DNA of 52,593 nucleotides from a virus, in the IMG/VR virus record IMGVR_UViG_3300050119_000254, positions 1 to 52,593 of that record; one strand, 5' to 3'. This document shows, piece after piece, positions 3,222-30,658 of this stretch. A program made the position numbers and the translations under genes. A model generated the notes under the pieces. It made no database searches and had not been told where the DNA came from. It was given only the letters and a program-made list of their open reading frames with translations. The number at the start of each line of letters is the position of its first letter. Position 1 is the first letter of the stretch.

Positions 3222-5552
3222 ATGAACGTCGCCCACTATTACGCGCCCAGAATTCGCCGCCGTGCACGGGACCGGAGGATCGCTGATCAAAAGGAAGCTG
3301 TTCAGGAGGTTCAAGCGGAGGAGTCGCTGATCATTCAACCGGAGTGGCAGTTCTTTGTTCACGGCAAACCGGCCACAATTCAGATCAACGAGAGCTACCA
3401 AGTAGCCGGTAGGCAGCTACCGACGATGTTGGGCGAGTGCTCGATGCCGGTCGCCGTCGTCCTGCAACGATTCGGTGACTTGTCCGGCCAGCTACCATGG
3501 TTGAATGAAGAGGTGTCTAGCTGGGTGCGCGAGTCAAGCATGCAGGTATACTTGAATCCGGACCATCCAGATCATATCTGGGCGATGGAGAGCTTGCACG
3601 ACTGCCTGATCCAACATGGGTGGACTAACACTGTGCAAGAAAGCTTCAAATGGAGAAGCTTCAAATGGAGATTGGACGAGCCTGCCGATGATTATTATTA
3701 CTGTAACTATAAGCAATATATTGTCACCGTGTGCAAGTCCAGAGTATGTGATAGGTGGATATTGTGTGTAAGTTTATGTGATCGTCGTTGTACGCGGATA
3801 AGCCCCACAATCGTGGATGACTTGGTTTTCGACACTTTAGAGGACGCGCAACAGTCAGCCGAGGCAACCATTTTAGCGGATGAGTCAGACCGGCGCGATG
3901 CACGTAAGATATCCACCGATCAAGCTGATCTTCCGGAGTCGTTGCAGGAGGCGCGCTGGGCCAGCATGGGACGCAGTTGGACAACGCAGATAGGTAATTG
4001 TGGCCTTTGGGTTAGTCCTGCGGACAGTTTATCACGCGCCGGTGAAGAAGGAGCGAAAGGCTGGCGCTGGACCTTATATCAAGGGCATGATCATCGGTGG
4101 ACTGACGACGCACGAACTGGCATTGAACCGACTGTTGATCAAGCTAAGGAAGCCGCCGTTATGGCGTATCGTCAGATGGGTCAGGACGCCACTTCACGCC
4201 TCGATCTTCTGGAAGCTGTGCAGCTATCGTGGAGGAAGGAAGATGATGAATGGAGAGGCTTCAACAGCCGGTACACCGCCTACATCAGGAAAATTGATGG
4301 AGGCTACATCGACCATCCCGGCATGCAGTGGAAATGGTCACTATTTCGCGCCAGAATCGAAACGTTGATCGAGCAGAACTTTGCTAGAACTTTTGATGAT
4401 GCTAAGGCCGCCGTGATGGCGTCGATCAACGCTGATGCATGGGTGCGCAGCCCTAATCATCCTGATATTGATGATCTTCCGGAATCCACTAGCTGGAACT
4501 GGCTCGGCTTCTCCGATGCTGGATTTTGTGGACACGATAAGAGGTTCAAGTTTATAGCTTATGTGGACCAGGTTATCGGCACAAGCCACCCGGAGTTCGG
4601 AAGATGGAAGTGGTCTGCCAGCTCCCATGACGAGTCGATGTTTGGGGAGGGATATTGTGATAACAGTAGGGAAGCTAAAAAAGCGGTGGAAGCATTTGTT
4701 CGAGATTGTTCGAAGAGTGGAGGGGATCTTGACCTTCCGGAGTCGCAGCAGCCCATCCAGGCGCTCAGCGAGGTATCTTTCCGCCGTCTCATGCAATATA
4801 CGCAGGCCAATGGGCGATATAAGGCGGGCGGAATGCGCCGCGTGGCTGGGAAGTGGATTTACGACCCCACCGTGGCGGGCCGGATCGAGAATTCCCGGTT
4901 CGTCCTGACCAATCCGCCGCGCATCAGGATCGATACTGACGGCTACGCGATCATCAATTACTCGTTCAAGTCCCGATCCGACCGATGCACCTCCGGATTA
5001 AGAGCGCGCGGTTACGTCAAGTTCATCACCGGCGACAAGCGCGCTAAATATCAATTCGGCCAGAAGGTAATGGTGGGCTGCAGCTGTGCCGATTTTAAAT
5101 ATCGTCAGGCATTCGTGCTATCGAAGATGGGGGCGTCACATACTCCTACTGGGGCTGGAGGCGAAGCTACCAACACTCCACCGGTGATCACGAACCCACA
5201 TATGCTACCGTCACTGTGCAAGCACGGCGTCGCGGTAGCTGCTTTTGTGACGAAGAATGTGAAGGATTTTGAGCAGCAAGTTCGGGATATGAAGCGCCAG
5301 TCGAAGGTTGAACCTATTGCTCCCGGTAAGTCTCCAATCGTGAAACCTGATGATAAGGTCAGCAAACCGGAAATTACTCCAAAGCCTAGCAAGCCTAAAG
5401 ACAAGAACAAGAAACCGTTGAACGTGCCGGACGTTGATAAGAAGGTCATGGATCGCAAGGCAAGAGAGGCGGCGGAGCCGCCCGGTGGCGAGGAGTCAGA
5501 GGCCACCCCACGGGATAAAGATAGAGACGGACAAAGCGATAGCGGTCGGTAA
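3222..5552 (+). CDS. multi-module DLPES protein with SWIM-type zinc finger
   Basis: A 776-aa mosaic protein. Residues about 140-510 hold four related modules of about 90 aa, each with Trp-rich strands (for example KWKWSASS, GWRWTLYQ), a helix of the type AKxAxxAxI, and an end at DLPES. Clear sites are at nt 3927-3941, 4473-4487 and 4731-4745; a decayed copy reads LDLLEA. LPE followed by S fits the (L/I)-x-E consensus of T4-type prohead protease. Residues about 550-680 form a SWIM-like finger (CSCADF, then CKHG near the end). The tail is Lys/Pro/Asp-rich and disordered. ATG 3222 is chosen over TTG 3216 because of the late-type box. Likely a virion protein cut into pieces; the biochemical role of each piece is unknown. 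Confidence 0.7.
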   Translation: MNVAHYYAPRIRRRARDRRIADQKEAVQEVQAEESLIIQPEWQFFVHGKPATIQINESYQVAGRQLPTMLGECSMPVAVVLQRFGDLSGQLPWLNEEVSSWVRESSMQVYLNPDHPDHIWAMESLHDCLIQHGWTNTVQESFKWRSFKWRLDEPADDYYYCNYKQYIVTVCKSRVCDRWILCVSLCDRRCTRISPTIVDDLVFDTLEDAQQSAEATILADESDRRDARKISTDQADLPESLQEARWASMGRSWTTQIGNCGLWVSPADSLSRAGEEGAKGWRWTLYQGHDHRWTDDARTGIEPTVDQAKEAAVMAYRQMGQDATSRLDLLEAVQLSWRKEDDEWRGFNSRYTAYIRKIDGGYIDHPGMQWKWSLFRARIETLIEQNFARTFDDAKAAVMASINADAWVRSPNHPDIDDLPESTSWNWLGFSDAGFCGHDKRFKFIAYVDQVIGTSHPEFGRWKWSASSHDESMFGEGYCDNSREAKKAVEAFVRDCSKSGGDLDLPESQQPIQALSEVSFRRLMQYTQANGRYKAGGMRRVAGKWIYDPTVAGRIENSRFVLTNPPRIRIDTDGYAIINYSFKSRSDRCTSGLRARGYVKFITGDKRAKYQFGQKVMVGCSCADFKYRQAFVLSKMGASHTPTGAGGEATNTPPVITNPHMLPSLCKHGVAVAAFVTKNVKDFEQQVRDMKRQSKVEPIAPGKSPIVKPDDKVSKPEITPKPSKPKDKNKKPLNVPDVDKKVMDRKAREAAEPPGGEESEATPRDKDRDGQSDSGR

Positions 5553-5565
5553 CATTCATTCCGTC

Positions 5566-7071
5566 ATGTTGGTGTTACCTCGAAACTGCACGGTGTGCAA
5601 ACTTTCATTTATGCCGTCAGGTCCAAGAGCTGGCGCACTGAAACGGTGCGACAGTTGCCGGACATATTCAAAGAGAAAGTGGCAGGAGAATGGCGACAAA
5701 TATAAGTGTCGCAACAATTTGGAGCGCGCGGAGCATAGCAGATTGAGAATGGTAAGGGCTAGAATACGAAATGAGCAGTTGCTTCTCGCAACATATGGGG
5801 TCGACGGCAGTTATGTGTGCCCATGCGGTTTCAGATCTCCGATCAAGCGCCAGTTTTCGTTTCATCATGTTGACCCGTCAATTAAAACGTGTGAGATCAC
5901 GCGTAAATTGCGTGCATTGAGCTTCAGCATAGACCTACTCGAATCCGAGGGCGTCATAATGAAGTGTGAGAACTGCCACCGAGTGGAACACGGTAACGGC
6001 GGGGCAAAGAGGACTATGTGGAAGCGCCTTCAAGACGCTGGGGTAGATCTAATATGCTGCATGTGCGAGGGCAGATTCGACCCGTGCGTTTACGACTTCC
6101 ACCATCTGGGCAACAAGCGTTTCAACGTCAGTCAGACTAATTGGAAGCTTGATAATATGTTACCAGAGCTGCGGAAATGCGTGATCGTGTGTGCCAGGTG
6201 CCATCGAGCCATCGATGCTGGAGTGCCTTGCCCATCAACGTTGACCGTAGGACAGCAGATCGATCAGCGACGAGTTGTATGCCATCAACGCAAGGTTCGC
6301 AACGCTGATGAACCAGCCAGCAGGTTGACGCATCCGCAGCTATTTGATAGGCCATTGGGTGACTTCATGCTGCAAAAGGAGCCTTATTCGACAGAGCTTA
6401 AGGAGTTCATCGAGCGCCGCGATTGGACCCAGCGAGTGGGCAACACCCCAAGATGGTGCTTCACAGCCCGGATTGATGGTGTGTTAGCCGGTGTCATCAT
6501 GATTGGTCAACCGCCCGGCCACACGACTTTGTTCAAGAACGACGCGGATTATCACGACGCCCAAGCCGTTATTCAGCGTGGGGCGTCCGCGTCGTTTGGT
6601 CACCGTAATCTCGGCTCCAAGCTGATCATGTGGTCGATTCGTTGGATGGTAAGGAACACCGAGAAGCGCACGTTTGTCGGATACGCGGACCCGGAAGCTG
6701 GTGAGCGTGGTCGAATCTATGCGGCTTGCAACTTCCGACACATCATTGGAGATTTCGGAGCTAAAATTTGCCTTCAACACCCAGACGTGAATGATGGTCA
6801 ACCATTCTCGCCATCATACTTGTACCACTGGCGGCGGATTAAGGAACATCTGATGCATTTGAGACTATGGAAAACCGAGTATTCGGTTGGTGGCGTCCCG
6901 AAGTCTCTGATGGAGCGCTGTCATCGACACAACAAACGGATTATGCATCAAGCCACAAGGGTTCGCACATCCTCGAAGAGGAAGTGGGTGCTGGTGGCGG
7001 CGCCCAACAAGCGTGAACTAAAGCGTCTGCAAAGCGAGCTGCTAGCATTGCGTCAAGATACCGTCCCGTAA
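5566..7071 (+). CDS. HNH endonuclease fused to Mom-like GNAT domain
   Basis: A 501-aa protein. The first about 230 residues contain zinc-finger pairs (CTVCKLSF, CDSC) and two HNH-like units (CPCGF...FHHVDP...CENCH and CCMCEG...DFHHLG...CARCHR), typical of phage homing endonucleases. Residues about 250-500 match the gene at 23913-24716: RGASASFGH, SKLIMWSIRWMV, then YADPEAGERGRIYAACNF. That last block resembles the Mom family of GNAT-fold DNA-base modifiers. ATG 5566 is preferred because a CATTC box (5553-5557) lies 8 nt upstream. The 3' end overlaps the convergent gene by 30 bp. HNH is confident, Mom-like moderately so; the fusion may reflect an HNH gene captured by or invading the modifier gene. 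Confidence 0.7.
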   Translation: MLVLPRNCTVCKLSFMPSGPRAGALKRCDSCRTYSKRKWQENGDKYKCRNNLERAEHSRLRMVRARIRNEQLLLATYGVDGSYVCPCGFRSPIKRQFSFHHVDPSIKTCEITRKLRALSFSIDLLESEGVIMKCENCHRVEHGNGGAKRTMWKRLQDAGVDLICCMCEGRFDPCVYDFHHLGNKRFNVSQTNWKLDNMLPELRKCVIVCARCHRAIDAGVPCPSTLTVGQQIDQRRVVCHQRKVRNADEPASRLTHPQLFDRPLGDFMLQKEPYSTELKEFIERRDWTQRVGNTPRWCFTARIDGVLAGVIMIGQPPGHTTLFKNDADYHDAQAVIQRGASASFGHRNLGSKLIMWSIRWMVRNTEKRTFVGYADPEAGERGRIYAACNFRHIIGDFGAKICLQHPDVNDGQPFSPSYLYHWRRIKEHLMHLRLWKTEYSVGGVPKSLMERCHRHNKRIMHQATRVRTSSKRKWVLVAAPNKRELKRLQSELLALRQDTVP

Positions 7072-7689
7072 CCAGCCGTGCCAACCGCCTCGGCTATGGA
7101 GGATTGATGGTGTGACGGTAATCCGGGGTGGCGTTCCGGTGACCTGCCATCCCTGGCCTTTTGATGAGGTCGTGTCCATGTCCCATACTCCTCCAGGCGT
7201 TCGGCAGAATAAGTGTGGGAACGGACCAAGTTGGTCTCCGATATGACGTTGCAACAGGTAGATGGAGTCTGGCCCGTGACCCCACGGTTGTTCCCAGATT
7301 GAACCGACCGGCAACCTCATGAGAGCGACTGGCTCCGAGGCCAGATCTGAAGCGTCCCGATATAGCCAGTCGGTGTGGACCTGCCACTCATCGGAGTCAC
7401 TAAACGGTGTGCCGCAGTGTTCGCAAGCTTTGGGCCATCTGGGGTCGTTATGGTCCCACTCGTAGTGGCGGATTAAGACAATGCCATCGATTGGTTCCGG
7501 CACGATGTCGTCCAAATGCTGTTGGGCGTCGCAATATAAAGTATATCCGAGCCTATCAGGAGACTTCGGACATTTACGAGTATCCGATGACACGTAGCGG
7601 CGCAGATAGCGACGGATCTGGCCGGTTGCCACGTAATATCGGCAAGTGATGGGTTCCATCACTAGATATAGGGCGATGTTGCACGCCAC
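7042..7689 (-). CDS. hypothetical protein with CxxC motif
   Basis: A 215-aa protein on the minus strand, with GTG at 7689 or ATG at 7659 as start. A CEHCG motif near residue 90 may bind zinc with other Cys/His residues. The C-terminal half has short conserved-looking pieces (DSIYLLQRHIGDQLG, GGVWDMDTT). I do not recognise the family. It overlaps the convergent gene end at 7042-7071 and the divergent gene start. Confidence 0.6.
   Translation of the reverse strand: MACNIALYLVMEPITCRYYVATGQIRRYLRRYVSSDTRKCPKSPDRLGYTLYCDAQQHLDDIVPEPIDGIVLIRHYEWDHNDPRWPKACEHCGTPFSDSDEWQVHTDWLYRDASDLASEPVALMRLPVGSIWEQPWGHGPDSIYLLQRHIGDQLGPFPHLFCRTPGGVWDMDTTSSKGQGWQVTGTPPRITVTPSILHSRGGWHGWLRDGILTQC
7662..7669 (+). 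promoter_or_regulatory. late-type CTAGATAT box
   Basis: CTAGATAT ends 6 nt before the ATG at 7676, with AGGG in between. Confidence 0.4.
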
Positions 7690-8281
7690 ACAGCCTTCAC
7701 TTCAATCGTTTCGCGACGCCTTCTGCCTCGGTGATCCATTGAGCTCCAATCTTTGGGCAGCATGCCGATGGCGCAAGGAGCCCAACGCCACGGCCTGCAA
7801 CTATACGGTTGTGATCTTCAATCTGTCCAACACTCTGAAGGCGCAATTCAAGCTGCAGAGTTCGCAAATTCCCTACGGGGACGAGGATAATATCGCCGAC
7901 ATCTCAATTCCAGTTGAATCCGTCAACGACACTTCATCTCCCAACGCTGTCACCTGGGCATGGCAGAAAGGATTGTTCAACAGTTCGTTCATCGATCTGC
8001 CCGTATACGTCAACGACAGTCTCAACACGACCGTCGACCTGTCGATCGTTCCGGGTGGACAAATCTCAATCAGCTTCACTAGCAACGCTCCGTTCATTCA
8101 GTGGGTGCCGCTGGCTAATTCAGGAGCGCGGTTGCAAGTGATCGCGGGCACGACCCAGCCGATCGCGGTCTGGAGTCATGAGGAAGTTCATCCGATGCCA
8201 CAAGATGCCAATGGTGGGTCGTTCCCGCTGGTGGGAATCTCGGTCTCGGAAGGCAATTCTGGCAACATGGACGACGCCTAA
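7676..8281 (+). CDS. putative virion structural protein
   Basis: A 201-aa beta-rich protein (segments CNYTVVIFNLSNTL, GGQISISFTS) with Asn/Ser/Thr-rich composition typical of phage tail or fibre proteins. ATG 7676 is favoured by the late-type box just upstream. No specific family recognised. Confidence 0.55.
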   Translation: MLHATQPSLQSFRDAFCLGDPLSSNLWAACRWRKEPNATACNYTVVIFNLSNTLKAQFKLQSSQIPYGDEDNIADISIPVESVNDTSSPNAVTWAWQKGLFNSSFIDLPVYVNDSLNTTVDLSIVPGGQISISFTSNAPFIQWVPLANSGARLQVIAGTTQPIAVWSHEEVHPMPQDANGGSFPLVGISVSEGNSGNMDDA

Positions 8282-8291
8282 GAGATCTAAG

Positions 8292-9974
8292 ATGCGACCA
8301 TTCCCACATTGCAGCAGAGCGGTTGAGCTTCATTTCAAGCGTCGGAAAGTGATCGAGCGCGTCCGGCCAGCTATTCCGATTCCATCTGTGCATCTGACAT
8401 TGATGGAAGCTGATCTTGACCTTCCGACGTCTCCCCCAGATCAACCGCCAGCCCGCCCTATGTCGCCAAGCGATGGAGGCGATGGAGTCGGACAAATCAT
8501 CCGCCAATATAACACGATCTGGCTGTCGGCTAAAGAATATTTTGACGGCAAGGTCGATGATCTTGTTCATCTGCCCGCCGAGTCCAAGGACAAACTTTTG
8601 GCGCAGGCCGCGTCCGGGCTGATCGCCCAATATGAGCTCGACCCGTCCAAGGAGCCGAGCCGCGACCATATTCGTGACACCGCGCTGATGCTGGCCGACA
8701 AGATCGACGACCTTTACCAGGATCGTGGACCGGACGAGCAGAAGGAATATGCCAACCGGCTCGCCCAAGGGTTGCGGGAATTTCACAACCAGGTCGATCC
8801 AGGGAGCGAGGAGCCCGATGATGAACCAACCGACGACGCTCCCGAGAAGCCTGCCAAGCCCAAGGTATCCAAGGAACCCAAGCACGACTTCGACCGCGAC
8901 ATGGCTAGGGAGCTGCCGAACCGCCATCAAGGCGTGACGAGGCGGCGTCCGCAGGAATCAATTGACGAATCATTGAAGAGTAACTGCGCCGCAAATGGTG
9001 TGGACGTTGGGTTCTTGAATCAGTTAACCAGCGCCGTGTATCCGAGGGCGGGTAGACTTAATAGTCGCGTCTTTAATAAGCTGTTTAACGCCTACGCTGA
9101 AAGGATTGCCGGATGTTTTGCGCCAGAAGATAGTGAGGATACGTTGAAGCATCAATGTTTCGATTATTTACCGTTTTACCGTAAGGAAATTCGAGATAAC
9201 GACATTGCGTTGGGCGTAGCGCTAGCGATTGGGGATGATAAGGAAGATCAGGACGAAGTGTTGAGCATGTTGCGTGGAAGAAGTCCATGCAAGACCCTCA
9301 TCAACAGACTCCGGAAAATCTTGATCGTTGGGCTTGTATCGACGCCATCCGGCACGTCACCCAAGACGTTGATGGTGGCACGGGTTGGTGACTATGAAGG
9401 TATAATTCGCCAGCTTGATGCGCATTCAGTGAAGGACGGTGAAGAAGCTGGTCAATGGCGTTGGATAGTTATTAGTGAGAACGATTTCGACTTTGAACAG
9501 CGCGGCGTTGTCGATACCATGGATCAAGCTAAGGAGGCGGCGGAGGCGACCATTCGTCAGCACAATGCAAAATCCGGCAACAGCGCAGACCTGCCGGAAT
9601 CGATGGTAGATCGGCTGCTGGAGACCGACCCCACGTTGAGCATGAACTTTGTCCATTGCCCGGAGTGCGGGCTCAAGTGCCGCCGCTCCAATGGGAAGTG
9701 CTTGTGCAACCATTGTGGTCATCGATTCAATCACGTGATCGATGATGATCTTCCCGAGTCCACCCATTCGCGCAATGCCTTGGCGCCAGTTAAGGACGCA
9801 CTGATCGCTTACATCAAGCAGCACCCATATTCGGCGTTCACTCCTGAGAGCTTGGCGCACGCTACTGACCAGGACATCATCATGGTGCTGAGCGCGCTGC
9901 GATCATTGAAGCGCGAGGGAGCATTGCGAGTCCAGAAGCGCACTCGTCGCAATCTCTACGAGCTTCCATTATGA
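8292..9974 (+). CDS. DLPES polyprotein with zinc-ribbon and winged-helix modules
   Basis: A 560-aa mosaic protein. An N-terminal region includes DLDLPTS and a charged, Pro-rich linker. A middle helical region leads into the about 90-aa Trp module (GQWRWIVIS, then DQAKEAAEATI) ending in ADLPESMVDRLLE (DLPES at 9588-9602). Next comes a compact zinc ribbon (CPECG, CRRS, CLCNHCGHRF), then a second DLPES at 9747-9761. The last about 65 residues look like a winged helix (VKDALIAYIKQHPYSAFT, then LRSLKREGALRV). Cutting after LPE would free the ribbon and the winged helix as separate small proteins, which suggests nucleic-acid-binding cargo. Cleavage is predicted, not shown. ATG 8292 is the first start after the upstream gene. 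Confidence 0.65.
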   Translation: MRPFPHCSRAVELHFKRRKVIERVRPAIPIPSVHLTLMEADLDLPTSPPDQPPARPMSPSDGGDGVGQIIRQYNTIWLSAKEYFDGKVDDLVHLPAESKDKLLAQAASGLIAQYELDPSKEPSRDHIRDTALMLADKIDDLYQDRGPDEQKEYANRLAQGLREFHNQVDPGSEEPDDEPTDDAPEKPAKPKVSKEPKHDFDRDMARELPNRHQGVTRRRPQESIDESLKSNCAANGVDVGFLNQLTSAVYPRAGRLNSRVFNKLFNAYAERIAGCFAPEDSEDTLKHQCFDYLPFYRKEIRDNDIALGVALAIGDDKEDQDEVLSMLRGRSPCKTLINRLRKILIVGLVSTPSGTSPKTLMVARVGDYEGIIRQLDAHSVKDGEEAGQWRWIVISENDFDFEQRGVVDTMDQAKEAAEATIRQHNAKSGNSADLPESMVDRLLETDPTLSMNFVHCPECGLKCRRSNGKCLCNHCGHRFNHVIDDDLPESTHSRNALAPVKDALIAYIKQHPYSAFTPESLAHATDQDIIMVLSALRSLKREGALRVQKRTRRNLYELPL

Positions 9975-10234
9975 CTGCCATGAGATATCTTGTTAACCTT
10001 TTTCTGATCTTCGTCGCGATCGTTTTGACGAGCTTGCGCATTAACTGGTGCCCGCATTTCGATCACTCGTGGCCAATTGTGTTCATGGCGGCGTCGCACG
10101 TCTTTGTCGGCGTCTGCGTCACCATGATGTTCTGGCCGAAGCTGCAACGCCATGAGCGTTTCTTCTACGCTCTGCTTTGGCTCGTGCCCGGATTGATCGA
10201 ATTTTGGGCGTTCAAGACCCTCCGACTTCCTTAA
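9971..10234 (+). CDS. small membrane protein
   Basis: An 87-aa protein with two or three hydrophobic helices (YLVNLFLIFVAIVL, VFMAASHVFVGVCV, YALLWLVPGLIEF). ATGA overlap with the DLPES gene before it. Its size would fit a holin-type or other inner-membrane protein, but no family is recognised. Confidence 0.55.
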   Translation: MTAMRYLVNLFLIFVAIVLTSLRINWCPHFDHSWPIVFMAASHVFVGVCVTMMFWPKLQRHERFFYALLWLVPGLIEFWAFKTLRLP

Positions 10235-10236
10235 CG

Positions 10237-10707
10237 ATGATTACGCAATTACACCTATTGGGCTCCCTTCATGGTCGGTTTACCGAATCGCGACTGACCG
10301 CGATGGGGTTTCAGAAGCCAGTGATCCGCCGCGCCATCACGATCGGGTTGATGGAGACCAGTGGGGGCATCGTATCTAGCATCCCTCCAAGATTGCGAGC
10401 GGCCAAGTTGAAATTCGCGGGCGTCAGTGAGGATATGGGAACGTCAGACCTTCAGCCCGGCGCCACCGTGCAACGGGTTGTTGATGGCGTCATTAAGACG
10501 TTTCAAGTCGTCCGGCAGGAAGGTGGCGACTTGGTGCTGATCGACCCTGAAAACACTGGAGCAGGAGAGCAGCGGTGCACCCGTTCTGACATCTCGCCAG
10601 TGATTTCTGATCCGAACGAACCTGGGGATCCACCGACGCCAGATAGCTCCAATCAACCTAAGACGGCATTATCCGACCCCAAGCCTGGCCGGATGCCATA
10701 CGCTTAA
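10237..10707 (+). CDS. hypothetical protein
   Basis: A 156-aa protein. The first about 60 residues look like a small helix-turn-helix fold (LGSLHGRFTESRLTAMGF, then VIRRAITIGLMETS). A beta-rich middle and a Pro-rich, disordered C-terminus follow. ATG 10237 follows the stop of the preceding gene. No family recognised. Confidence 0.5.
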   Translation: MITQLHLLGSLHGRFTESRLTAMGFQKPVIRRAITIGLMETSGGIVSSIPPRLRAAKLKFAGVSEDMGTSDLQPGATVQRVVDGVIKTFQVVRQEGGDLVLIDPENTGAGEQRCTRSDISPVISDPNEPGDPPTPDSSNQPKTALSDPKPGRMPYA

Positions 10708-10711
10708 TCCC

Positions 10712-10978
10712 ATGTTACCAGGAGATCAAATCATTCAAGCATCAGCCAGCTTCGGCGGGCGCGGGTTCTCAGCTATTTCGGACACCGACGTGCATGGGGG
10801 ATCATATTACGCAATCAAAGCGGTTGGCGGCGATGTGGTGATCGATTCCGCCGTGTTACCTGCCAACTGTGACGGCAGCATCGACGGATGGACAATCAGC
10901 AATGGCGACTGCATCCTGGCCCCAAGCATCGCTGACTTGCAACTGTCGAGCGGTAAGGCTTTAGCGTACAAGCTATGA
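10712..10978 (+). CDS. small virion-type protein
   Basis: An 88-aa Gly/Ser/Asp-rich beta protein (GGDVVIDSAVLPANCDGS) sitting directly before the fibre-like gene, to which it is coupled by ATGA. Similar small proteins often accompany tail fibres; the exact role is not visible. Confidence 0.5.
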   Translation: MLPGDQIIQASASFGGRGFSAISDTDVHGGSYYAIKAVGGDVVIDSAVLPANCDGSIDGWTISNGDCILAPSIADLQLSSGKALAYKL

Positions 10979-12666
10979 TAGGAATGGGTATAGGTGTGGG
11001 CTTTGGCGGTAAAGTGTCTTCTGCAGCGCCGCCGCCGACTAATCCAGTTTCCGGCTCAATACTTTACCAGCTTCCCGACGTTCTATCATCTGGATTGGTT
11101 TCCTCGTATCTAGATCAAAGCAGTAGCGGTAATACAGGCACGGCATCCGGCGGCCAGAGGCCAACGGCGAACCTTCTGGATCTCAATGGAAAGACGACCG
11201 TTTCTTTCAACGGCTCAAATTATCTCACCCTCACGGACGAAATAAATCTCACAGAGGGAACCGTTCATTGCTTCGTCAATACCCTCTCGTCGGAAGCCTC
11301 TGCGGTTTTTGGCTATGGAGGCGAGCCTGGACCTTACTGGTTTTTGTTGTTCATGACGGATGGGAATATTTATATCGGAAATGGTGTGACGCAGAACACA
11401 TGGCAATATACGGCTACGGGTGAATGGTTGATTGTGACTGTCGTTGCAACGACGACGCAGCAAAACATCTTCATCAACGGTGTGTATCTTGGACCGGGAA
11501 CTCAGGCATCTAACCCAATGGGCGGGATCGCAAGCATATTTGATATAGGTTACGGGAACACCAGATTCTTCACCGGGAAGATGGGAATCAACCTATTTTA
11601 CAATACCCCGCTTTCGAACGCTGATCGACAGACGAACGAAGCTTTCTATTCTGGATATTACGCGCAGACGCTAGGGAATCAATGCTTAGCTACAGGGAAC
11701 TCTCTCGTGTTTGGCGTCAATTCCACTGGCAATCAAAATTTCCCTGACATCGCCAGTATCGCGCTCGGTTCAAGCTGGGTTAAAATTGCCAACCTTGGAA
11801 TCGCTGGCGAGACGACTCCGCAGATGATCACTGCTGCCCCAACGACAATCGATCCATTTTCTAATACCACACTGAGAAACAATATTTGTCTCGCGTGGGA
11901 ACTTATTAACGACGCGGTGGCCAATGTAAGTCAACCCGATCAAGTAGCTAATGTTGTCGGGCACATGGTCACTTACGGCACAGCGCGAAAGGCTGCCGGG
12001 TTCAAGGTGATTGTCGGTACGATGCTCTCGCAGGGTTATAATACCAATGTCACGGACACGATTCGAGGTGAGATCAATGCCGGGATACTAGATCCCACTC
12101 AAATCGGAGTTGCATGGGACGATGTCGCAGATATGTCGTGGAACCCAAATGTTGGAGGCAATGGCGCGTGGGAGAATACGAACTACTTCAGTTCCGTGGA
12201 CAAGATCCACATGACGAACTACGGCTACCAGTGCGCGGCGGTAATCTGGGGTTACTACGTGTCGAAGAACGCGATTCTGCCAGCCGCGTCCGAAAAGACG
12301 CTCATCGACTTCAACGGGCTGACTGTGTCAAGCTTCACCACAGGAGCGGCGGGAGACGCGATTGTTTTGCTTTCAAACGCCAGTCAACACTACTTTTGGT
12401 TCCAGACGGGAACTGAGCATGATCCAGGACTCACGGGAACTGGCGTGGAAGTGAGTCTTGTCGGTCTGACGACCGCTGCGCAAATCGCAGGCGCGATGGC
12501 AGCCACCATTCAAGGGTCGCTTTCTGGGCAATGGGCGGCTACGAACGTCAATGGTTCGGGAACGTTGACAGCGGTGCAAACGATAGATGTTGGGACTGGA
12601 AGCCACAAGCCAGCTTTTGCTTACAATTTTGGACCCGTGGTTTCAATTCTCAAGTACGGGCATTAA
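10975..12666 (+). CDS. tail-fibre-like protein with LamG and SGNH hydrolase domains
   Basis: A 563-aa protein. Residues about 25-220 look like a LamG/concanavalin-type sandwich (DLNGKTTVSFNGSNYLTL, then INGVYLG and FTGKMGINLFY). Residues about 235-430 look like an SGNH/GDSL esterase: block I ATGNSLVFG near 240, block III WELINDA near 308, and D-x-x-H in DKIHMT near 409. The C-terminal about 120 residues are a beta-rich fibre domain. Such proteins sit at tail fibres and may deacetylate surface glycans. The Asp-to-Asn change in block I (GNS for GDS) occurs in some family members. Domain order is clear; the substrate is unknown. Confidence 0.7.
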   Translation: MIGMGIGVGFGGKVSSAAPPPTNPVSGSILYQLPDVLSSGLVSSYLDQSSSGNTGTASGGQRPTANLLDLNGKTTVSFNGSNYLTLTDEINLTEGTVHCFVNTLSSEASAVFGYGGEPGPYWFLLFMTDGNIYIGNGVTQNTWQYTATGEWLIVTVVATTTQQNIFINGVYLGPGTQASNPMGGIASIFDIGYGNTRFFTGKMGINLFYNTPLSNADRQTNEAFYSGYYAQTLGNQCLATGNSLVFGVNSTGNQNFPDIASIALGSSWVKIANLGIAGETTPQMITAAPTTIDPFSNTTLRNNICLAWELINDAVANVSQPDQVANVVGHMVTYGTARKAAGFKVIVGTMLSQGYNTNVTDTIRGEINAGILDPTQIGVAWDDVADMSWNPNVGGNGAWENTNYFSSVDKIHMTNYGYQCAAVIWGYYVSKNAILPAASEKTLIDFNGLTVSSFTTGAAGDAIVLLSNASQHYFWFQTGTEHDPGLTGTGVEVSLVGLTTAAQIAGAMAATIQGSLSGQWAATNVNGSGTLTAVQTIDVGTGSHKPAFAYNFGPVVSILKYGH

Positions 12667-12678
12667 ACGCGATGCGCT

Positions 12679-12686
12679 CTAGTTAT
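12679..12686 (+). promoter_or_regulatory. late-type CTAGTTAT box
   Basis: CTAGTTAT ends exactly 4 nt before the ATG at 12691. Confidence 0.45.
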
Positions 12687-12690
12687 CGGA

Positions 12691-13431
12691 ATGGCACTTC
12701 CGATTTCCACTTGCTACGAAGGCGACAATTATCAGTTTCTAGCTCGGACCAGGGCGTTCATCACGGCGCTACCCGACATTTTCGAGCGTCTGCATGATCT
12801 CGATTTGGATCATTCCTATCGTGGGATGCAGAAGCTGAGGTTTGTGGAGCAGCTGGAGCTCGGGGCCGGGACGACCCATTTTTATAATGCCAAGAAGGAT
12901 ATGTTGTCAGTGTTCCCGATGGCGTTTAGCGCCGGTGGGCGGATCGATCTTACCCTCTACGAAGGGCTGGGACAGCGCCATTGGCAGACCGGGATGTCGT
13001 CGGCCCACAAGGTGACGTGGGCGAGGTGTCTGGTTAAGGCCGACCAGCACGTCGTGGACCGGATTGATGAAGCGCTCGCCAGCGCTGATGACGGTCAGTT
13101 TCTCGACATCGTCGGTCTCTTCCACTCGGCGACCGAGAAGCTGCAGGCCATCCATATCGTCAACGCGATGGTGCGCAACTCGATGTCGATCACCCAGTTC
13201 GCCAACATGAGCGTGCGTGACTACCCGGCCACCAAAGATTTCTGCGCTGGCGACCGGCCCTACTCACTGATCCCACTGCTGAGCGCTTACGCAGCCCGTT
13301 GCGTCCGCCGGTATCCGGAAGCCTTCGCTCAGTATTGTGCGCGCTCAGGCCACCTTCCAGTTTCCGAGACGTCAACGGAGGCCGCGTTCGTGAGGCTGTT
13401 CAAATCGGTGACGCTGAGCGACCATGCGTAA
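12691..13431 (+). CDS. hypothetical protein
   Basis: A 246-aa mostly helical protein with no motif I can name. The late-type box at 12679-12686 supports ATG 12691. Its end overlaps the start of the DLPES gene at 13424 by 8 bp. Confidence 0.6.
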   Translation: MALPISTCYEGDNYQFLARTRAFITALPDIFERLHDLDLDHSYRGMQKLRFVEQLELGAGTTHFYNAKKDMLSVFPMAFSAGGRIDLTLYEGLGQRHWQTGMSSAHKVTWARCLVKADQHVVDRIDEALASADDGQFLDIVGLFHSATEKLQAIHIVNAMVRNSMSITQFANMSVRDYPATKDFCAGDRPYSLIPLLSAYAARCVRRYPEAFAQYCARSGHLPVSETSTEAAFVRLFKSVTLSDHA

Positions 13432-14434
13432 GCTGAGATGGCGAAAGAACAGTAACGGTGGACTATGGACTGATTGGGCAACGGACAGATATCGTCGAAC
13501 CACAGAGTCCGATTACATATTTGTCATATCGAGAGACAACGCGGGGTGGTTGTGGCGTTGTTACAACGTTGTTGACGATACCATATTTTTCGGTACGGTG
13601 ACGATGCGCATTGCAGCGATCGAACAAGGCGAGAAGATGGCCGCACAGACGATTGGAGACAGCGATCAAGACCTCCCTGAGTCGCTGTTGGAAGCCAACG
13701 AATATCACGACGCTAGTGACCCCAAGTCGTTGACGCGCGCCACGGTTGGGTACGGTAACCGTCTTTTCAAGATCGAGCTCGGAATATATGGTAATGAGTT
13801 TCTGGTGGCGGGAGACTGTGCTGGTGATGCGATGGATGCGCTAATTGACTGGCTGGATGGTCATAACTCTCCGTGGGTGATGACGCCAGAACAAGAGGCA
13901 TCGCTCGATGACTGTGAGGGTGAGCACTATCTCAGTGGTGGTAATTACGGGAAACACTTGGATTGCGGTGCTGAGGAAGTATGGATTACACAGGTCCCGG
14001 CTAAGGATGCTTTCCTGACCCGTGAGGAACAGCGCGCGATCGCAAGGGCGAAAGCTGCGGAGCTCGATCTCCCAGAGTCATCGAAATGGTCCAAAAACTG
14101 GCTGTTCGATCTTGTCTATCGCAGCCTCGATGGCGTTAATCGAGAGTTATTAGCTGCTCGAATATCCGAGCAAGCTAAGTGGATCATTATTGCCGGGAAA
14201 GTGACAGGTAAAGGTTCCTTGCAAAACACAGTGGATCGAGACATTGGTTACCAACGAGCGGCTGAATGGGCGGGCCGCGATTGGGGTCGCATCATTACTA
14301 GGCTACAAGGATTGCGTGACGGTCGCAATTATCGTCCGGTCAGAATCGACCTCACGCCCGGTGTGGACTGGATGTCGGGAGGCCCGCAAGACCTTCCGGA
14401 ATCATTAGCTGACCAACTATTGGGGGCCAAATGA
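13424..14434 (+). CDS. DLPES multi-module protein with C-terminal DLPES tail
   Basis: A 336-aa protein made of three units. It opens directly with a Trp module (KLRWRKNSNGGLWTDW, then GWLWRCYN) ending at DLPES (13670-13684). A second unit of about 130 residues ends at DLPES (14066-14080). A third ends in the C-terminal tail QDLPESLADQLLGAK (DLPES at 14390-14404). LPE is a T4-type prohead protease signature. The tail recurs in three other genes and may be a C-terminal targeting peptide. ATGA coupling links it to the next gene. Biochemical activity of the modules is not recognised. Confidence 0.65.
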   Translation: MRKLRWRKNSNGGLWTDWATDRYRRTTESDYIFVISRDNAGWLWRCYNVVDDTIFFGTVTMRIAAIEQGEKMAAQTIGDSDQDLPESLLEANEYHDASDPKSLTRATVGYGNRLFKIELGIYGNEFLVAGDCAGDAMDALIDWLDGHNSPWVMTPEQEASLDDCEGEHYLSGGNYGKHLDCGAEEVWITQVPAKDAFLTREEQRAIARAKAAELDLPESSKWSKNWLFDLVYRSLDGVNRELLAARISEQAKWIIIAGKVTGKGSLQNTVDRDIGYQRAAEWAGRDWGRIITRLQGLRDGRNYRPVRIDLTPGVDWMSGGPQDLPESLADQLLGAK

Positions 14435-14778
14435 GCAGCGCCATCATCAGATTCCTGACGCAAAGGTCATCCATCCAGACCCGCAACCACCGCGACATCC
14501 TGGACCTGACCGGCACAGTGCCGCCGTCTACTCCACCGCCTCCGGGACCGCGACAGGTGTTGCTCACTCATTCACCGGGTCAGATCGACGTTCGAATCCT
14601 CTATCCGGACGGCCAATCTGAGATGATGTACCATGGTCCGGACCTGTTCCTGAAGCTCACCCAGAGAGGCTTACCTGCTTACAAGCTGGAGCGAGTCATC
14701 GATCATCTTTGGAACTTTTATCAAGTTTATGTGGACTGTGACGAGGAGCCGAGGCCACCAAAAATTCAGCTCGAATGA
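14431..14778 (+). CDS. hypothetical protein
   Basis: A 115-aa protein between two DLPES genes, coupled to both by ATGA-type overlaps. A Pro-rich segment (PPSTPPPPGP) near residue 30 leads to a mixed alpha/beta C-terminal half. It lacks the DLPES motif. Function unknown. Confidence 0.55.
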   Translation: MSSAIIRFLTQRSSIQTRNHRDILDLTGTVPPSTPPPPGPRQVLLTHSPGQIDVRILYPDGQSEMMYHGPDLFLKLTQRGLPAYKLERVIDHLWNFYQVYVDCDEEPRPPKIQLE

Positions 14779-16043
14779 GAAACTGGCAAATCAACAGATT
14801 TGGTGAGTGGAAGTATCATTCGTCGAGCGGCATCCATCGCCAGTACCATGTTCACATATGGCGCGAAAAACAGTGGGTGTGGGAGGCGTCCCACAAAGTC
14901 GATAATTGTCACCATGTGATTGGTAGAGGACATTCAACTAACGTTGAGCTGGCTGCCCAAGAGGCTGAGAAATCGATCCGGACGCACGCTGCCACGCTTC
15001 AAGTGGATCAGGATCTTCCGGAATCTATGGGCGGTGAGGTGGTTCTTAAACCCGGTGACGTTATCTTGGTGCGAGGGATCTCCAGAACATATCGCGAGGT
15101 AGTCGATCATTGCGCCCATGATTTGGGAACCGTATACGCGCGCTGCACCGGGATAAGGGACCCTCGGTTACATGGTGGAGCATGGCCAATAAGCCAAGTG
15201 ATCGCTGTCAAGATCGACGGTCAGATGCGGCCCGTTAAATATGACGAAGATACTAGTAAGTTTTGGTGGATCGACAACGATCTTCCGGAGTCCACAACGT
15301 CATTGAATTGGAAGGAAGACCCAGATGGCGCGTGGAGCGCTCGCCTTGGCACCAAATACGAGGCAGCTATCAGGAAGAAATCTGACAAATGGGTGTGGGA
15401 TGTGACCTACAATCTTGGAATGTTTAGCTGTGAGCAATGTGGATACGGGGCGGAAGACACTATTGAACAAGCCAAGATGAAAGCTGCTGATACGATTCGC
15501 GGTGAAATTTCAAGCCGCCGCAGTGTCAGTCAAGATCTTCCAGAGTCCGCGCCGGAATGGGTGGACATGACCATCACCTCCCTGAACGTTGACGCTGACG
15601 GTAAATATCTTGGATTTTATCGAGGCGAGTTTACGTGGCCGCGTAATATTGGCAATCTGATCATTAAGGTCCCATCGATAACGTTTGACGGAGACATTTG
15701 GGTGGAGGGTGACATCGTGGCGGATGGTGACGTCAATGTGGCGGATAATGAGATCTCGGCAGGCGGCAACATCCTAGTGAAGGGCGACATCGTGGCGGGC
15801 GGCATCATAGCGAACGGCAACGTCTGGGCGAACGGCAAAATCGTAGTGGATGGTGGTAACATCAGCGTGGGAAAGGGAGGTAGCGTCCGATCACCACACA
15901 TCACGGCGTTACGCGTTTATACAAATTATGACCGACACGACGTCGTTGATGGTCAGATCGTGCGGAGATCTGGCGCTAGGACTGGACAAAAGTCTAGGGG
16001 CCAAGATCTTCCGGAATCATTGGCTGACCGGTTGCTCGGTTAA
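14775..16043 (+). CDS. DLPES polyprotein with bactofilin-like beta-helix
   Basis: A 422-aa mosaic. Units in order: a Trp module ending at DLPES 15012-15026; a beta-rich unit of about 85 residues (KPGDVILVRGISRTYREV) ending at DLPES 15279-15293; a second Trp module (LNWKEDPDGAWSARLG, CEQCG) ending at DLPES 15535-15549; and a C-terminal right-handed beta-helix with repeats like GDIVADGDV and GNVWANGKIV, followed by the tail QDLPESLADRLLG (16005 on). The beta-helix resembles bactofilin/DUF583 repeats. The protease gene starts 76 bp downstream, placing putative substrates beside their enzyme. Cleavage is predicted from motif only. Confidence 0.65.
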   Translation: MRNWQINRFGEWKYHSSSGIHRQYHVHIWREKQWVWEASHKVDNCHHVIGRGHSTNVELAAQEAEKSIRTHAATLQVDQDLPESMGGEVVLKPGDVILVRGISRTYREVVDHCAHDLGTVYARCTGIRDPRLHGGAWPISQVIAVKIDGQMRPVKYDEDTSKFWWIDNDLPESTTSLNWKEDPDGAWSARLGTKYEAAIRKKSDKWVWDVTYNLGMFSCEQCGYGAEDTIEQAKMKAADTIRGEISSRRSVSQDLPESAPEWVDMTITSLNVDADGKYLGFYRGEFTWPRNIGNLIIKVPSITFDGDIWVEGDIVADGDVNVADNEISAGGNILVKGDIVAGGIIANGNVWANGKIVVDGGNISVGKGGSVRSPHITALRVYTNYDRHDVVDGQIVRRSGARTGQKSRGQDLPESLADRLLG

Positions 16044-16105
16044 CGGTCAATCGCCGTCGCTTTAGGTTGCCATTGTATTATGGTCGCTTTGCCACAGCTT
16101 TGCCA

Positions 16106-16113
16106 CTAAATAT
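16106..16113 (+). promoter_or_regulatory. late-type CTAAATAT box
   Basis: CTAAATAT ends 6 nt before the protease ATG at 16120; GAGG lies between. I see no ORF in the 76-bp gap 16044-16119. Confidence 0.5.
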
Positions 16114-16119
16114 CGAGGC

Positions 16120-18054
16120 ATGAAACCAGCAAAGCCTGCAGGATGGCAACCGTTGATTGAAGAGAAAATTTTTCGCCCCATTGGGGAGCCCGTGTTGGTG
16201 GAGTCCGCCGAGCTAGGTCGCAAGGTCTTGCGGCAGCATGGCGTCATCCAATCGTACACCCAGCGCAACCAGAATGGTCGGCTCTATCCGAAGAAGCTTT
16301 GGGAGGCGCTATTCAAGCCGGACAGCGACTTCATGGAACGGCTCCAGAGTCGCGCCATGGTCGGGCTTCTGGAGCATCCGGAGGACGGGATCACCAGGCT
16401 CGACCGAAGTCCTAGCCATCTGATGACGGAAGTCCATTTTGCCTCGCCCAAGGAGATCACGGAATCCCGCAAGTCCGACCCCAAGCACCCGTTGGAGGAA
16501 GGCGACATCATTGGGACGCTCGAAGTGATCGAAGGGACCCGTAACGGCGATGAGCTCAAGGCGCTCATCGAAGCCAAGGTTCAAATCGGCGTCAGTTCAC
16601 GAGGCGGCGGAACGCTCAAGGAGGATGGGGAGGGCCACACCGTCAACGAGGATTATGAATGCGAGACCTGGGACGTCGTGCAGTCGCCATCCGTCAGCCG
16701 CGCCATCCCGCGCAAGACCGAGGTCACTCATGAATCGGCTCCGGTCCCTCCCGTCCCACCAGTCGTGGAAGCTGTTCCGCCAACTCCTGCCCCGGTCGTG
16801 GAGTCCAAGGTTCCGGTCGCTCCAGTGGTCAAGCTTTTCTGCGAGAACGGCGCCGTCCGTTACGAGATCGTCGAGGATGCCACCGGCTCCCATGTCTACG
16901 ACCGCAAGGATGAGAAAAATCTTCACGACTGCGCCACTCCGGAACTGGCTCACCAATGGGTCATGGAAAACCTTAAGGCATCCGCTCCCGCCCAAGCATT
17001 ACCGCTCGCGCCTGTCGTCAAGCCTTCCACGCCAGCTCCCTCGGTTCCACTTCAAGAATCAACCAACACCACTATTATGTCACATCGCGATAAGCTCCGC
17101 ACCCTCGACCTGGACGTCACCCGTCTCACTTCCACGCCCGTCAAGGGTTTGAAGCCATCGGCCAAGTCGTCCATGTTCGAATCTATCACCAGCCTCCGCG
17201 TCGAGATCGCGGGCGTCCTCAAGGAGGACTCGACCCTGCAGCCGATCGCCGACAAGCAGCTCAAAAGGCTCACCGAATACGAGGACGAGCTCGATGCCGA
17301 GCCGATTCCGGAGGGGCCTGTCTCCCACGAGGGTGACGGCGACTTCGAGGACTTTGATCACGCCGACGAAGGTGGTGGTGACGACGATGTGATGTGCCGG
17401 GCCGCCGCCAAGCTTCGGACCCTCGGTGACGAGGGGGATGAGGAAGCTGCCGGATTGGCCGATGAACTCGATGCCGTGTGCGGTGATGGTGATGAACCGC
17501 CCATGGATGACGTCCCACCGCCCGCCCCTGAGGGCGACGCTCCTCCGATGGAGTCGAAGCTCCGCAGCTTCATCAAGAGGATGAAGGGCAAGTACGTCAA
17601 GCTTGAGAGCGCTCATCGCCGCCTGACCGCCGCGACCGCCACGCTGTTGGAGCGCTACCGGACCGTCAAGAAGCACCTCACTGAGAACGGTGGGGGGCGT
17701 CCCGCCGACCAGCAGTCGATCGAGGAATATGAGAATGCTGCCCGCGACATTGCGGACCGCTATAACCGCCATATGATCGAGATGGGCAAACTGCTCATGC
17801 AGGCCAAGCAGCCTGGACTCTATGAGGCCAATGAGGACCGCTTCAAGCGCGTCCGCACCTGGAAGCAGTTCGGCGAGGTCTCCCAGCAGGTCGTGGCCAA
17901 GCGTCCGCTTCGCGAGGGCGTCCAGCCTCCGGTCAAGAAGCCAGCATCGAGCTCCTCCACCAATCCGCCGCCCGATCCGCCTCTCACGGAAACCGTCCAC
18001 CCGTCCGTCATGATGGCAACGCGCGCCCGCCACCGGTCCACCATTACGGGATAA
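16120..18054 (+). CDS. prohead core protease fused to scaffold
   Basis: A 644-aa protein. Residues 1-200 match T4 gp21: NQNGRLYPKKLWEAL near 51-65, catalytic His in GLLEHPEDG near 86, and catalytic Ser in QIGVSSRGGG near 159. T4 gp21 is about 212 aa, so this one has an extra about 430 residues: a Pro/Val-rich linker, then a charged helical region (YVKLESAHRRLTAATATLLE) like a gp22-type scaffold. A candidate self-cleavage site LQES lies near residue 311 and an internal Met follows at nt 17077. The enzyme would mature the head and is the natural candidate to cut the DLPES and tag motifs seen elsewhere. Fusion of protease and scaffold in one ORF is unusual for T4 relatives. Confidence 0.88.
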   Translation: MKPAKPAGWQPLIEEKIFRPIGEPVLVESAELGRKVLRQHGVIQSYTQRNQNGRLYPKKLWEALFKPDSDFMERLQSRAMVGLLEHPEDGITRLDRSPSHLMTEVHFASPKEITESRKSDPKHPLEEGDIIGTLEVIEGTRNGDELKALIEAKVQIGVSSRGGGTLKEDGEGHTVNEDYECETWDVVQSPSVSRAIPRKTEVTHESAPVPPVPPVVEAVPPTPAPVVESKVPVAPVVKLFCENGAVRYEIVEDATGSHVYDRKDEKNLHDCATPELAHQWVMENLKASAPAQALPLAPVVKPSTPAPSVPLQESTNTTIMSHRDKLRTLDLDVTRLTSTPVKGLKPSAKSSMFESITSLRVEIAGVLKEDSTLQPIADKQLKRLTEYEDELDAEPIPEGPVSHEGDGDFEDFDHADEGGGDDDVMCRAAAKLRTLGDEGDEEAAGLADELDAVCGDGDEPPMDDVPPPAPEGDAPPMESKLRSFIKRMKGKYVKLESAHRRLTAATATLLERYRTVKKHLTENGGGRPADQQSIEEYENAARDIADRYNRHMIEMGKLLMQAKQPGLYEANEDRFKRVRTWKQFGEVSQQVVAKRPLREGVQPPVKKPASSSSTNPPPDPPLTETVHPSVMMATRARHRSTITG

Positions 18055-22359: not shown

Positions 22360-22675
22360 ATGAAAGCTTTGCGATATCATGTGAAACCTGGCGACAAGGG
22401 TCCGTTCTATGCTTATTCGGAAGACTTTATCGGCGCGCTGGTGGGACCTTTTACCACTTTGGAAGAAGCTTCATCGGCACGTGAGAAGGATGCAAGCCTA
22501 TACCGATTACGGGGACGACTTCCTTGGTGTGGTGACGCCGAGCCATCCAGAGTTCGAAGAGCTTAAAGATAATGGGTTGGGGATCATCTCGCCTGAACGG
22601 GATAGAAACATGAATAAGTCCAAGCTTGATGCGTCGGACTTGCCGGAATCACTGGCCGATCGATTGCTCGGATAA
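22360..22675 (+). pseudogene. frameshifted small protein with C-terminal DLPES tail
   Basis: ATG 22360 opens a frame (MKALRYHVKPGDKGPFYAY, then TTLEEASSAREKDASLY) that continues, after a shift near 22497-22505, in the next frame (TDYGDDFLGVVTPSHPEF) to SDLPESLADRLLG and stop. The two halves join naturally as one about 105-aa protein. The tail is almost identical to that of the gene ending at 16043. Either one base is wrong in the assembly or the gene is broken. Confidence 0.5.
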
Positions 22676-29589: not shown

Positions 29590-30135
29590 GTGAACCCATT
29601 CGATTTCGCTCAATTACTGGAATCCGGTGACAAGTCATATAGTTGCACAATGTTAATGATGCCGGAAGAGGTTTGCCGGATCATCCAGCAAGTTCAGGAC
29701 GATATTGACGAAGATGATCTTGCTGGCGACGGGTTGGAGACGGAATATCACACGACAATCATGTACGGAACGCATACCGACGACCTTGACGAGATCAAGG
29801 AGGCACTGCGGTCAACCGGCATTAAGGAAGTAAGGTTCAAGATCGGCGACCTGACCAGCTTTCCGCCGTCCGTTTACTCGGATGGCGCTTCGGTCCTCAA
29901 ATATGACGTGGAGAGCGACGACCTGAACGAGCTCCACGAAGCTCTGGCCAAGCTTAAGTGCACGGAATCGTTTAAAAATTATCACGCGCATTGTACAGTC
30001 GCGTATGTCGATAGTGGTGTGGTCGACCGTTACACCGGCAAACCTTTCCCGAAGCGCAGGGAGTTGACATCCGATCAAGTTATGTTTTCAACGTCCGACC
30101 GCAAAAAGACGACGTTCAAGCTGTCCGACCCATGA
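29590..30135 (+). CDS. 2H phosphoesterase with capsid-targeting-like tag
   Basis: A 181-aa protein. It opens with the tag MNPFDFAQLLES. The body has the two H-x-T motifs of the 2H phosphoesterase superfamily: YHTTIMYG near residue 53 and HAHCTVAYV near 134, spaced as in that family. Members include RNA 2',3'-cyclic phosphodiesterases and Acb1, the T4 enzyme that degrades CBASS cyclic nucleotides. The tag suggests packaging and injection, which would suit an immediate anti-defence role; this is inference. GTG start 4 nt after a late-type box; ATGA overlap with the next tagged gene. Confidence 0.75.
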   Translation: MNPFDFAQLLESGDKSYSCTMLMMPEEVCRIIQQVQDDIDEDDLAGDGLETEYHTTIMYGTHTDDLDEIKEALRSTGIKEVRFKIGDLTSFPPSVYSDGASVLKYDVESDDLNELHEALAKLKCTESFKNYHAHCTVAYVDSGVVDRYTGKPFPKRRELTSDQVMFSTSDRKKTTFKLSDP

Positions 30136-30656: not shown

Positions 30657-30658
30657 GG

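Follow-up and report, generated by a model that had tools for sequence, protein, structure and literature searches.

In phage T4, the prohead protease gp21 cleaves after L/I-x-E, and the Alt protein is cleaved at its C-terminus (PMC9026906). In SPN3US, cuts are made at A-x-E, gp245 prefers Ser at P1' (PMC10052503), and the C-terminal propeptide of the protease is proposed to direct the protease to the core (PMC10052503, PMC7411985). Herein, the IMG/VR virus record IMGVR_UViG_3300050119_000254 (positions 1 to 52,593; this whole stretch is called the window) is compared with these systems. Its genes repeatedly carry the pentapeptide DLPES (Table 1). The reading favored here, with somewhat better than even confidence, is that the DLPES proteins are modular precursors that would enter the head by means of a targeting tail at the C-terminus and be cleaved at DLPE↓S (the arrow marks the presumed cut) during head maturation by the adjacent gp21-type protease.

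Table 1 Positions of the DLPES genes, the targeting-like peptides and the neighboring head genes in the window.
Feature	Position	Strand	Details
Modular precursor	3222..5552	+	DLPES at 3927-3941, 4473-4487, 4731-4745; four W domains, then C-terminal region with SWIM-like CxC...CxH motif
W/W border with DLLEA in place of DLPES	4203-4217	+	In gene 3222..5552
Modular precursor	8292..9974 (open frame from 8178)	+	DLPES at 9588-9602, 9747-9761; W domain / zinc-ribbon-like 53-aa unit / helical C-terminal unit
Conserved head-block gene	12691..13431	+	Orthologues upstream of protease in G001-G005
Modular precursor	13424..14434	+	DLPES at 13670-13684, 14066-14080, 14390-14404; W domain / two unknown units / tail SLADQLLGAK
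Conserved head-block gene	14431..14778	+	DLPES genes on either side
Modular precursor	14775..16043	+	DLPES at 15012-15026, 15279-15293, 15534-15548, 16005-16019; W / SH3/KOW-like / W / beta-solenoid / tail SLADRLLG
gp21-type head maturation protease with long C-terminal region	16120..18054	+	Contains PLQE↓S
Major capsid protein, gp23 family	18103..19563	+	Pfam and phrog matches
Four overlapping small genes	21371-21664, 21661-21876, 21873-22127, 22124-22345	+	
Single unit with tail DLPE↓SLADRLLG	22409..22675	+	Tail 22637-22672
Targeting-like N-terminal peptide VNPFDFAQLLE↓S	29590..29622	+	On 2'-5' RNA ligase/Acb1-like protein
Targeting-like N-terminal peptide MTPATYAELLE↓D	30132..30164	+	On GNAT acetyltransferase
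Targeting-like N-terminal peptide MSPTDFDQLLE↓D	30659..30691	+	On 81-aa protein
Beta-solenoid-like single unit with tail DLPE↓SLVNRLLN	38305..38601	-	DLPES 38329-38343

DLPES was found 14 times, spread over six genes of the window, when 0.019 occurrences were expected from the amino-acid composition of the gene set. It is the most frequent pentamer among those common to at least three window genes, and a comparable pentamer was absent from all five relatives (54-73% identity in the major capsid protein). The sequence-only reading had counted the copies per gene, described C-terminal tails in the genes ending at 22675 and 38305, and matched LPE to the gp21 consensus L/I-x-E (PMC9026906); all 14 sites and both tails were recovered at these places, and the consensus match holds. 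The 14 copies are encoded by 14 distinct DNA words, so DLPES cannot be a recent repeat at the DNA level. In proteins of the same domain type, 12 more copies occur on a second, independent phage contig, G007. Together, the 26 copies use 25 distinct words, by which a recent DNA duplication or an assembly artefact was ruled out. The third codon positions are unlike in about half or more of the pairs while the peptide is constant, the flanking regions do not align, and the Ser codon is TCN in every copy (P 5e-5 by codon usage). These data indicate that the copies came from one element and that the peptide is under selection. Sortase LPxTG was dropped as an identity, since Thr-Gly, a membrane segment and a basic tail are all missing.

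DNA pattern scans of IMG/VR returned G007 as the sole real second DLPES phage; the remaining hits were single isolated copies or frames matched by chance. In a scan of genome contigs, unrelated bacteria gave three isolated matches, which were judged to be chance. Whole DLPES proteins as queries gave no matches in IMG/VR or annotated phages except in the SWIM-like region, which weakly matches jumbo phages. No Pfam match above cut-off was obtained for any DLPES protein of the two phages. The 14775 protein gave weak FapA/Bactofilin matches. The 3222 gene matches phrog_18980 (3e-7).

The recurrent W domain is predicted to be beta4-alpha (AF2 pLDDT 89). A profile HMM found 14 strong W domains, confined to the two DLPES phages, with none in G001-G006. 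No PDB fold matched at E <= 0.001, and the HMM found no match among PDB sequences; PUR-alpha and dsRBD folds bear a weak resemblance that is not claimed. The W-domain sequences are highly diverged, and their alignment is unsuited to a further scan. The W domains are followed by DLPE[S/A] in 13 of 14 cases and by DLLE↓A in the remaining one, so that every W border obeys the T4 gp21 rule of L-x-E followed by a small residue. The HMM-defined borders are a fair test of the residue after DLP; a Fisher test is biased because its borders were picked by the motif. At borders departing from DLPES (DLLE↓A, DLPE↓A, ALPE↓A, DLPE↓V), L and E are retained and D, P or S is sometimes lost. It had been claimed that DLPES always marks module borders; this is true of every W-type module by profile HMM, the exception being a W/W border of the 3222 gene that reads DLLEA.

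The DLPES sites lie within polar linkers. For the full 14775 protein, the AF2 model is of low quality (pLDDT 65); the internal DLPES sites fall outside its folded elements, which weakly supports cutting, but its tail helix begins at the presumed cut bond, which counts against cutting. A plain cleavage reading is further opposed by the D, P and S of DLPES, which are much more constrained than LxE demands. LxE alone leaves unexplained the D, the P, the near-invariant S, and the -DLPx-COOH ends from which nothing can be removed.

These ends belong to nine standalone proteins of the two phages that terminate in -DLP or -DLPx, where x is V, D, I or E. Glu is terminal in one of the eight having an x. 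The variable x indicates that Glu is fixed solely where residues follow. Four adjacent small genes with such ends (21371-22345) were overlooked in the sequence-only reading; at their stop codons they end, in order, in -DLPV, -DLP, -DLPV and -DLPD, and the first product resembles a standalone W domain (E 0.004). We tentatively suggest, as a rather doubtful possibility, a C-terminal address code, in which every mature internal protein of the phage group would end in -DLPx-COOH, whether translated directly from small coupled genes or released from polyproteins by DLPE↓S cuts, and one motif would be both the protease site and, once exposed, a sorting or ejection signal. If true, virion cargo of a tailed DNA phage would be produced by a genuine polyprotein strategy.

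The main rival, which we consider unlikely, holds that DLPES is an uncut short linear motif for docking or capsid-core binding (helix N-cap plus LxxxLL), with repeats for avidity in intact polyvalent proteins that are injected. It would account for the constraint on D, P and S beyond the needs of a gp21 site and for DLP at the extreme C-terminus of standalone proteins, where nothing is cuttable. LPES can also be read as a helix N-cap, LPESLADRLL is like the terminal peptide TPDSFNELL, and polyvalent multidomain phage proteins are already known (PMC5512222). However, internal DLPES copies frequently lack the LxxxLL helix. They are often without LADRLL while the pentamer itself is retained, as expected if the cut site acts independently. 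The docking motif is also opposed by the fixation of Glu only before further residues and by the variants DLLEA, ALPEA and DLPEV, which keep L and E and can drop D, P or S.

The C-terminal tail SLADRLLG resembles the N-terminal targeting-like peptides (MSPTDFDQLLE) of the window phage and its relatives; in the tail, the presumed cut is on the other side. This pattern is enriched at N-termini (window, three versus about 0.3 expected; G005, seven) on proteins whose bodies are largely unrelated, and its C-terminal instances include ...MTPDSFNELL* in G001. DLPE↓S stands before each tail, providing an L/I-x-E site between cargo and the putative targeting peptide. The DLPES proteins of the window lack a short N-terminal peptide ending in L/I-x-E, which three other window genes have. 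In the 8292 protein, MVDRLLE↓T follows the first DLPES and makes a full targeting-peptide-like stretch. The relative of the 38305 protein in G007 (37330-37845) likewise has the end DLPESLSDRLLNYVDC. The tail is better read as a probable capsid-targeting peptide plus cut site than as another module border. Unlike polyproteins, the products of genes 22409 and 38305 each consist of one unit plus a tail. The position of the tail at the C-terminus rather than the N-terminus means that the DLPES proteins are not classed as T4-type internal proteins. In T4 and SPN3US, head proteins that are retained far more often lose an N-terminal propeptide (PMC9026906, PMC10052503), and this counts against the favored reading. 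Precedents on its side are the C-terminal cut of T4 Alt and the core-targeting role proposed for the C-terminal propeptide of the SPN3US protease.

The protease gene matches Peptidase_S77 in Pfam (8e-10, 39 bits, cut-off 27), Peptidase_S80 (27.5 bits, cut-off 23.4) and phrog_207 head maturation protease (2.4e-26). Its His (EHPEDG) and Ser (SSRG) are invariant, and the EHP and S-S/T-RG motifs align across seven phages. The gp21-type assignment proposed earlier is thereby confirmed, and the gene adjoins the densest DLPES cluster. In the major capsid protein, L-D-E↓A (LDE at 18304-18312) is the presumed maturation site and is aligned in relatives. Head-block genes with orthologues upstream of the protease in relatives alternate with DLPES genes 13424 and 14775. 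Several points weigh against the favored reading: phages with closely related capsid proteins carry this protease without DLPES, gene 38305 sits in a replication-gene region, outside the head block, and DLPES is known from two phages. Cutting by another protease or at another time, such as by a host protease or after ejection, would accommodate gene 38305 and the 45-kb fragment of G007, which has neither a protease nor a capsid gene. This explanation appears quite improbable, as L-x-E followed by a small residue is the known rule of the gp21-type class and the protease gene adjoins the densest cluster. The idea that DLPES is the scar of a once useful C-terminal tag, left by fusion and duplication of small genes and functionless inside the proteins, fits the common descent of the copies (Ser always TCN) and the G007 modules that open with a tail-like remnant and then Met (DLPESLADQ-MITLKVGDRV), but is very improbable given diversified synonymous sites, five constant residues in 26 copies and non-aligning flanks.

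From these computed features, we infer packaging, cleavage by the adjacent protease and ejection as follows. The DLPES proteins would serve as modular precursors from which small internal head proteins derive. A capsid-targeting role would fall to the terminal tail (SLADRLLG and similar), which would bind the prohead core as the C-terminal counterpart of the N-terminal targeting-like peptides found in the same phage (MSPTDFDQLLE↓). At head maturation, the gp21-type protease would cleave after the Glu of each DLPE↓S, taking off the tail and releasing each domain as a small protein with a -DLPE-COOH end. Such ends would resemble those given to standalone proteins by translation (-DLPV, -DLPD, -DLPI, -DLPE). 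The released proteins may remain in the head and reach the host along with the DNA. The earlier proposal of polyproteins cut in head maturation is partly supported: it keeps its footing in the gp21 rule, the L and E kept at variant borders, the polar linkers and the two genes in the head block, and falls short where LxE alone is asked to explain the D/P/S constraint and the -DLPx-COOH ends.

If true, a tailed DNA phage would use a polyprotein strategy like that of RNA viruses to load its head with varied small proteins from few genes and a single targeting tail. Having an identical site throughout would make packaged cargo predictable from sequence and provide a test case for prohead protease specificity. 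It would also suggest a C-terminal tag for the simultaneous loading of several proteins into a phage head. Domains punctuated by the motif or tagged by an N-terminal peptide (here Acb1-like and GNAT) would be candidates in a search for unknown anti-defence proteins.

Among known systems, P1 DarB is similar in that a short terminal signal sends cargo into the head (PMC9024508), but that signal is N-terminal, unrelated in sequence and without a repeated cut site. Polyvalent proteins (P1 DdrB and DarA; N4 virion RNA polymerase) are likewise multidomain and thought to be injected, have GNAT and other effector domains, and are processed in some cases (PMC5512222). At least two distinct domains per DLPES protein were found (W, SH3/KOW-like, beta-solenoid, zinc-ribbon-like, SWIM-like; types other than W assigned by eye), as in that class; its other marks, a conflict-related catalytic domain or fused peptidase, were not found by Pfam in the DLPES proteins of either phage. 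Processing of polyvalent proteins is ascribed to fused metallopeptidase-type domains, whereas the DLPES proteins have repeated identical linkers. In phiKZ and SPN3US, a gp21-type protease cuts after Glu, head proteolysis is extensive and there are many internal proteins (PMC10052503, PMC7411985); there, N-terminal propeptides are cut from single proteins, and the sections of the reports used here describe no invariant pentamer between packaged domains. T4 IPI-III and Alt share with this locus small diverse proteins, a short targeting peptide, the L/I-x-E rule, a gp21-type protease and a gp23-type capsid protein (PMC9026906). The T4 internal proteins come from separate genes with an N-terminal targeting peptide, whereas here many domains are joined per gene by an invariant DLPES, with a targeting-like peptide at the C-terminus.

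The window, a linear virus record of 52.6 kb, contains 14 copies of DLPES spread over six genes, as the sequence-only reading had listed and a motif scan reproduced; composition predicts 0.019. In the five relatives G001-G005, whose capsid proteins are 54-73% identical to that of the window, pentamer comparison found no gene-to-gene shared pentamer comparable to DLPES. The gp21-type protease named in that reading is borne out by the profile matches in the table. When 2.9 million virus contigs were scanned for the pattern of the C-terminal tail (DLPES plus a SLADRLLG-like peptide), one record came back, G007 (IMGVR_UViG_3300050119_000188, 45 kb), with 12 DLPES spread over several proteins, tails such as DLPESLSDRLLNYVDC and the variants DLPEA, DLPEV and ALPEA.

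Features of the window and of the second DLPES contig
Feature	Contig	Position	Remarks
gp23-type capsid protein	window	18103-19563	Pfam Gp23 2.5e-48
gp21-type head protease	window	16120-18054	Peptidase_S77 8e-10; phrog_207 2e-26
Small genes ending at motif	window	21371-22345	C-termini -DLPV, -DLP, -DLPV, -DLPD
Small genes ending at motif	G007		C-termini -DLPD, -DLPE, -DLPI, -DLPI, -DLPD
Tandem paralogous small proteins	window	21661-22345	share VVDGQxSxxxSIV-like stretch; start/stop codons overlap
Three consecutive targeting-like-peptide genes	window	29590-30904	unrelated bodies
Transposase-family gene	window	30990-32273	phrog_506, 7.5e-117; directly after targeting-peptide genes
Mom DNA-modification family match	window	5434-7071	E 1.6e-6, above Pfam cut-off
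Mom DNA-modification family match	window	23913-24716	E 3.4e-5, below Pfam cut-off
Counterpart of window gene 38305	G007	37330-37845
20-codon open frame MINIDQDLPESLADRLLDIQ	G007 (L026)	1004-1066, minus	begins right after portal stop codon
Class II ribonucleotide reductase	G007 (L026)	12521-16687, minus	split by intein with LAGLIDADG domain

The recurrent W domain (about 80 aa, beta4-alpha, AF2 pLDDT 89) gave no significant PDB match in a structure search with its AF2 model. Its profile detects 14 strong domains over the window and G007 and none in G001-G006. The motif had been placed at module borders, and for W domains this holds: all 14 are followed by L-x-E and then S or A (DLPES 12, DLPEA 1, DLLEA 1). 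The ten residues preceding the motif have a polar fraction of 0.72, against 0.58 in an average protein. A model of the 14775 protein, of low confidence, places none of the internal DLPES sites within predicted secondary structure and starts a helix at the tail site.

Small genes terminating exactly at the motif are present in both phages, and one of their products is similar to a single W domain (E 0.004). A VVDGx stretch similar to that of the tandem paralogues precedes DLPES in the beta-solenoid proteins. The fourth residue of the motif is Glu at the borders, where the chain continues, whereas it is mostly another residue where the chain ends. If the chain were cut after Glu, the modules of a polyprotein would become products of the type that these small genes encode; this is, as we infer, the strongest argument for cleavage. 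The standalone ends also show, however, that DLP carries a meaning of its own.

T4 gp21 cleaves after L/I-x-E (PMC9026906), and DLPE↓S (arrow, presumed cut bond) agrees with this rule as originally proposed. SPN3US gp245 cleaves at A-x-E, with Ser preferred next (PMC10052503). The window capsid protein has a candidate site L-D-E↓A, aligned with LDE↓A or LDE↓T in four of five relatives, and the protease itself contains the candidate site PLQE↓S. We lean towards the DLPES linkers being cut by the head protease. LxE alone does not account for the invariant D, P and S; they would fit a dual-use motif, both cut site and recognised exposed -DLPE end, and they would also fit a docking motif that stays uncut, which we consider rather unlikely. 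A literature search limited to open-licence papers turned up no description of a phage in which an identical head-protease site recurs between packaged domains.

A DNA repeat is ruled out by the 14 different DNA sequences of the 14 window copies. Together with G007, 26 copies comprise 25 distinct DNA words; in pairwise comparison, 47-74% of pairs have different third codon positions, the residues are constant, and flanking DNA diverges about as much as unrelated DNA. Because the serine codon is TCN in every copy although AGY makes up 32% of serines (P about 5e-5), the copies share a common ancestor and have been constrained at the peptide level.

One G007 DLPES gene sits between the baseplate wedge and portal genes, which are directly adjacent in L043, a locus of a relative with a portal 59% identical to that of G007. 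Window DLPES genes 13424 and 14775 alternate with two genes, 12691 and 14431, that have orthologues upstream of the protease in relatives. From these arrangements, the DLPES genes look like cargo genes inserted inside conserved structural blocks. For the 20-codon frame of G007 there are three candidate readings: a mini-gene, an extension of the portal protein by frameshift, and a remnant.

Three window genes begin with VNPFDFAQLLE↓S, MTPATYAELLE↓D and MSPTDFDQLLE↓D. In the consecutive run, the first gene matches 2'-5' RNA ligase/anti-CBASS Acb1 families and the second a GNAT acetyltransferase; injected host-control proteins are a plausible reading of these two, and the products of the run are candidate injected anti-defence proteins. 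Seven genes of the relative G005 (L020-L022) have a like N-terminus, M-x-P-x-x-F-x-x-L-I/V-(E), on bodies unrelated but for one marginal pair (E 0.007). The DLPES tail, LPESLADRLL, is similar to these peptides, as is the G001 C-terminus ...MTPDSFNELL; the tail may itself be a C-terminal targeting peptide. Since the peptide is at that end, the cut must precede it, and DLPE↓S is so placed. The N-terminal peptides of the window and G005 match the logic of the T4 capsid-targeting sequence, a ten-residue peptide whose first part does the targeting and whose end carries the L/I-x-E cut (PMC9026906). Head-protease processing at a C-terminus is known for T4 Alt (PMC9026906), and for the SPN3US protease the C-terminal propeptide has been proposed to serve as its core-targeting signal (PMC10052503, PMC7411985).
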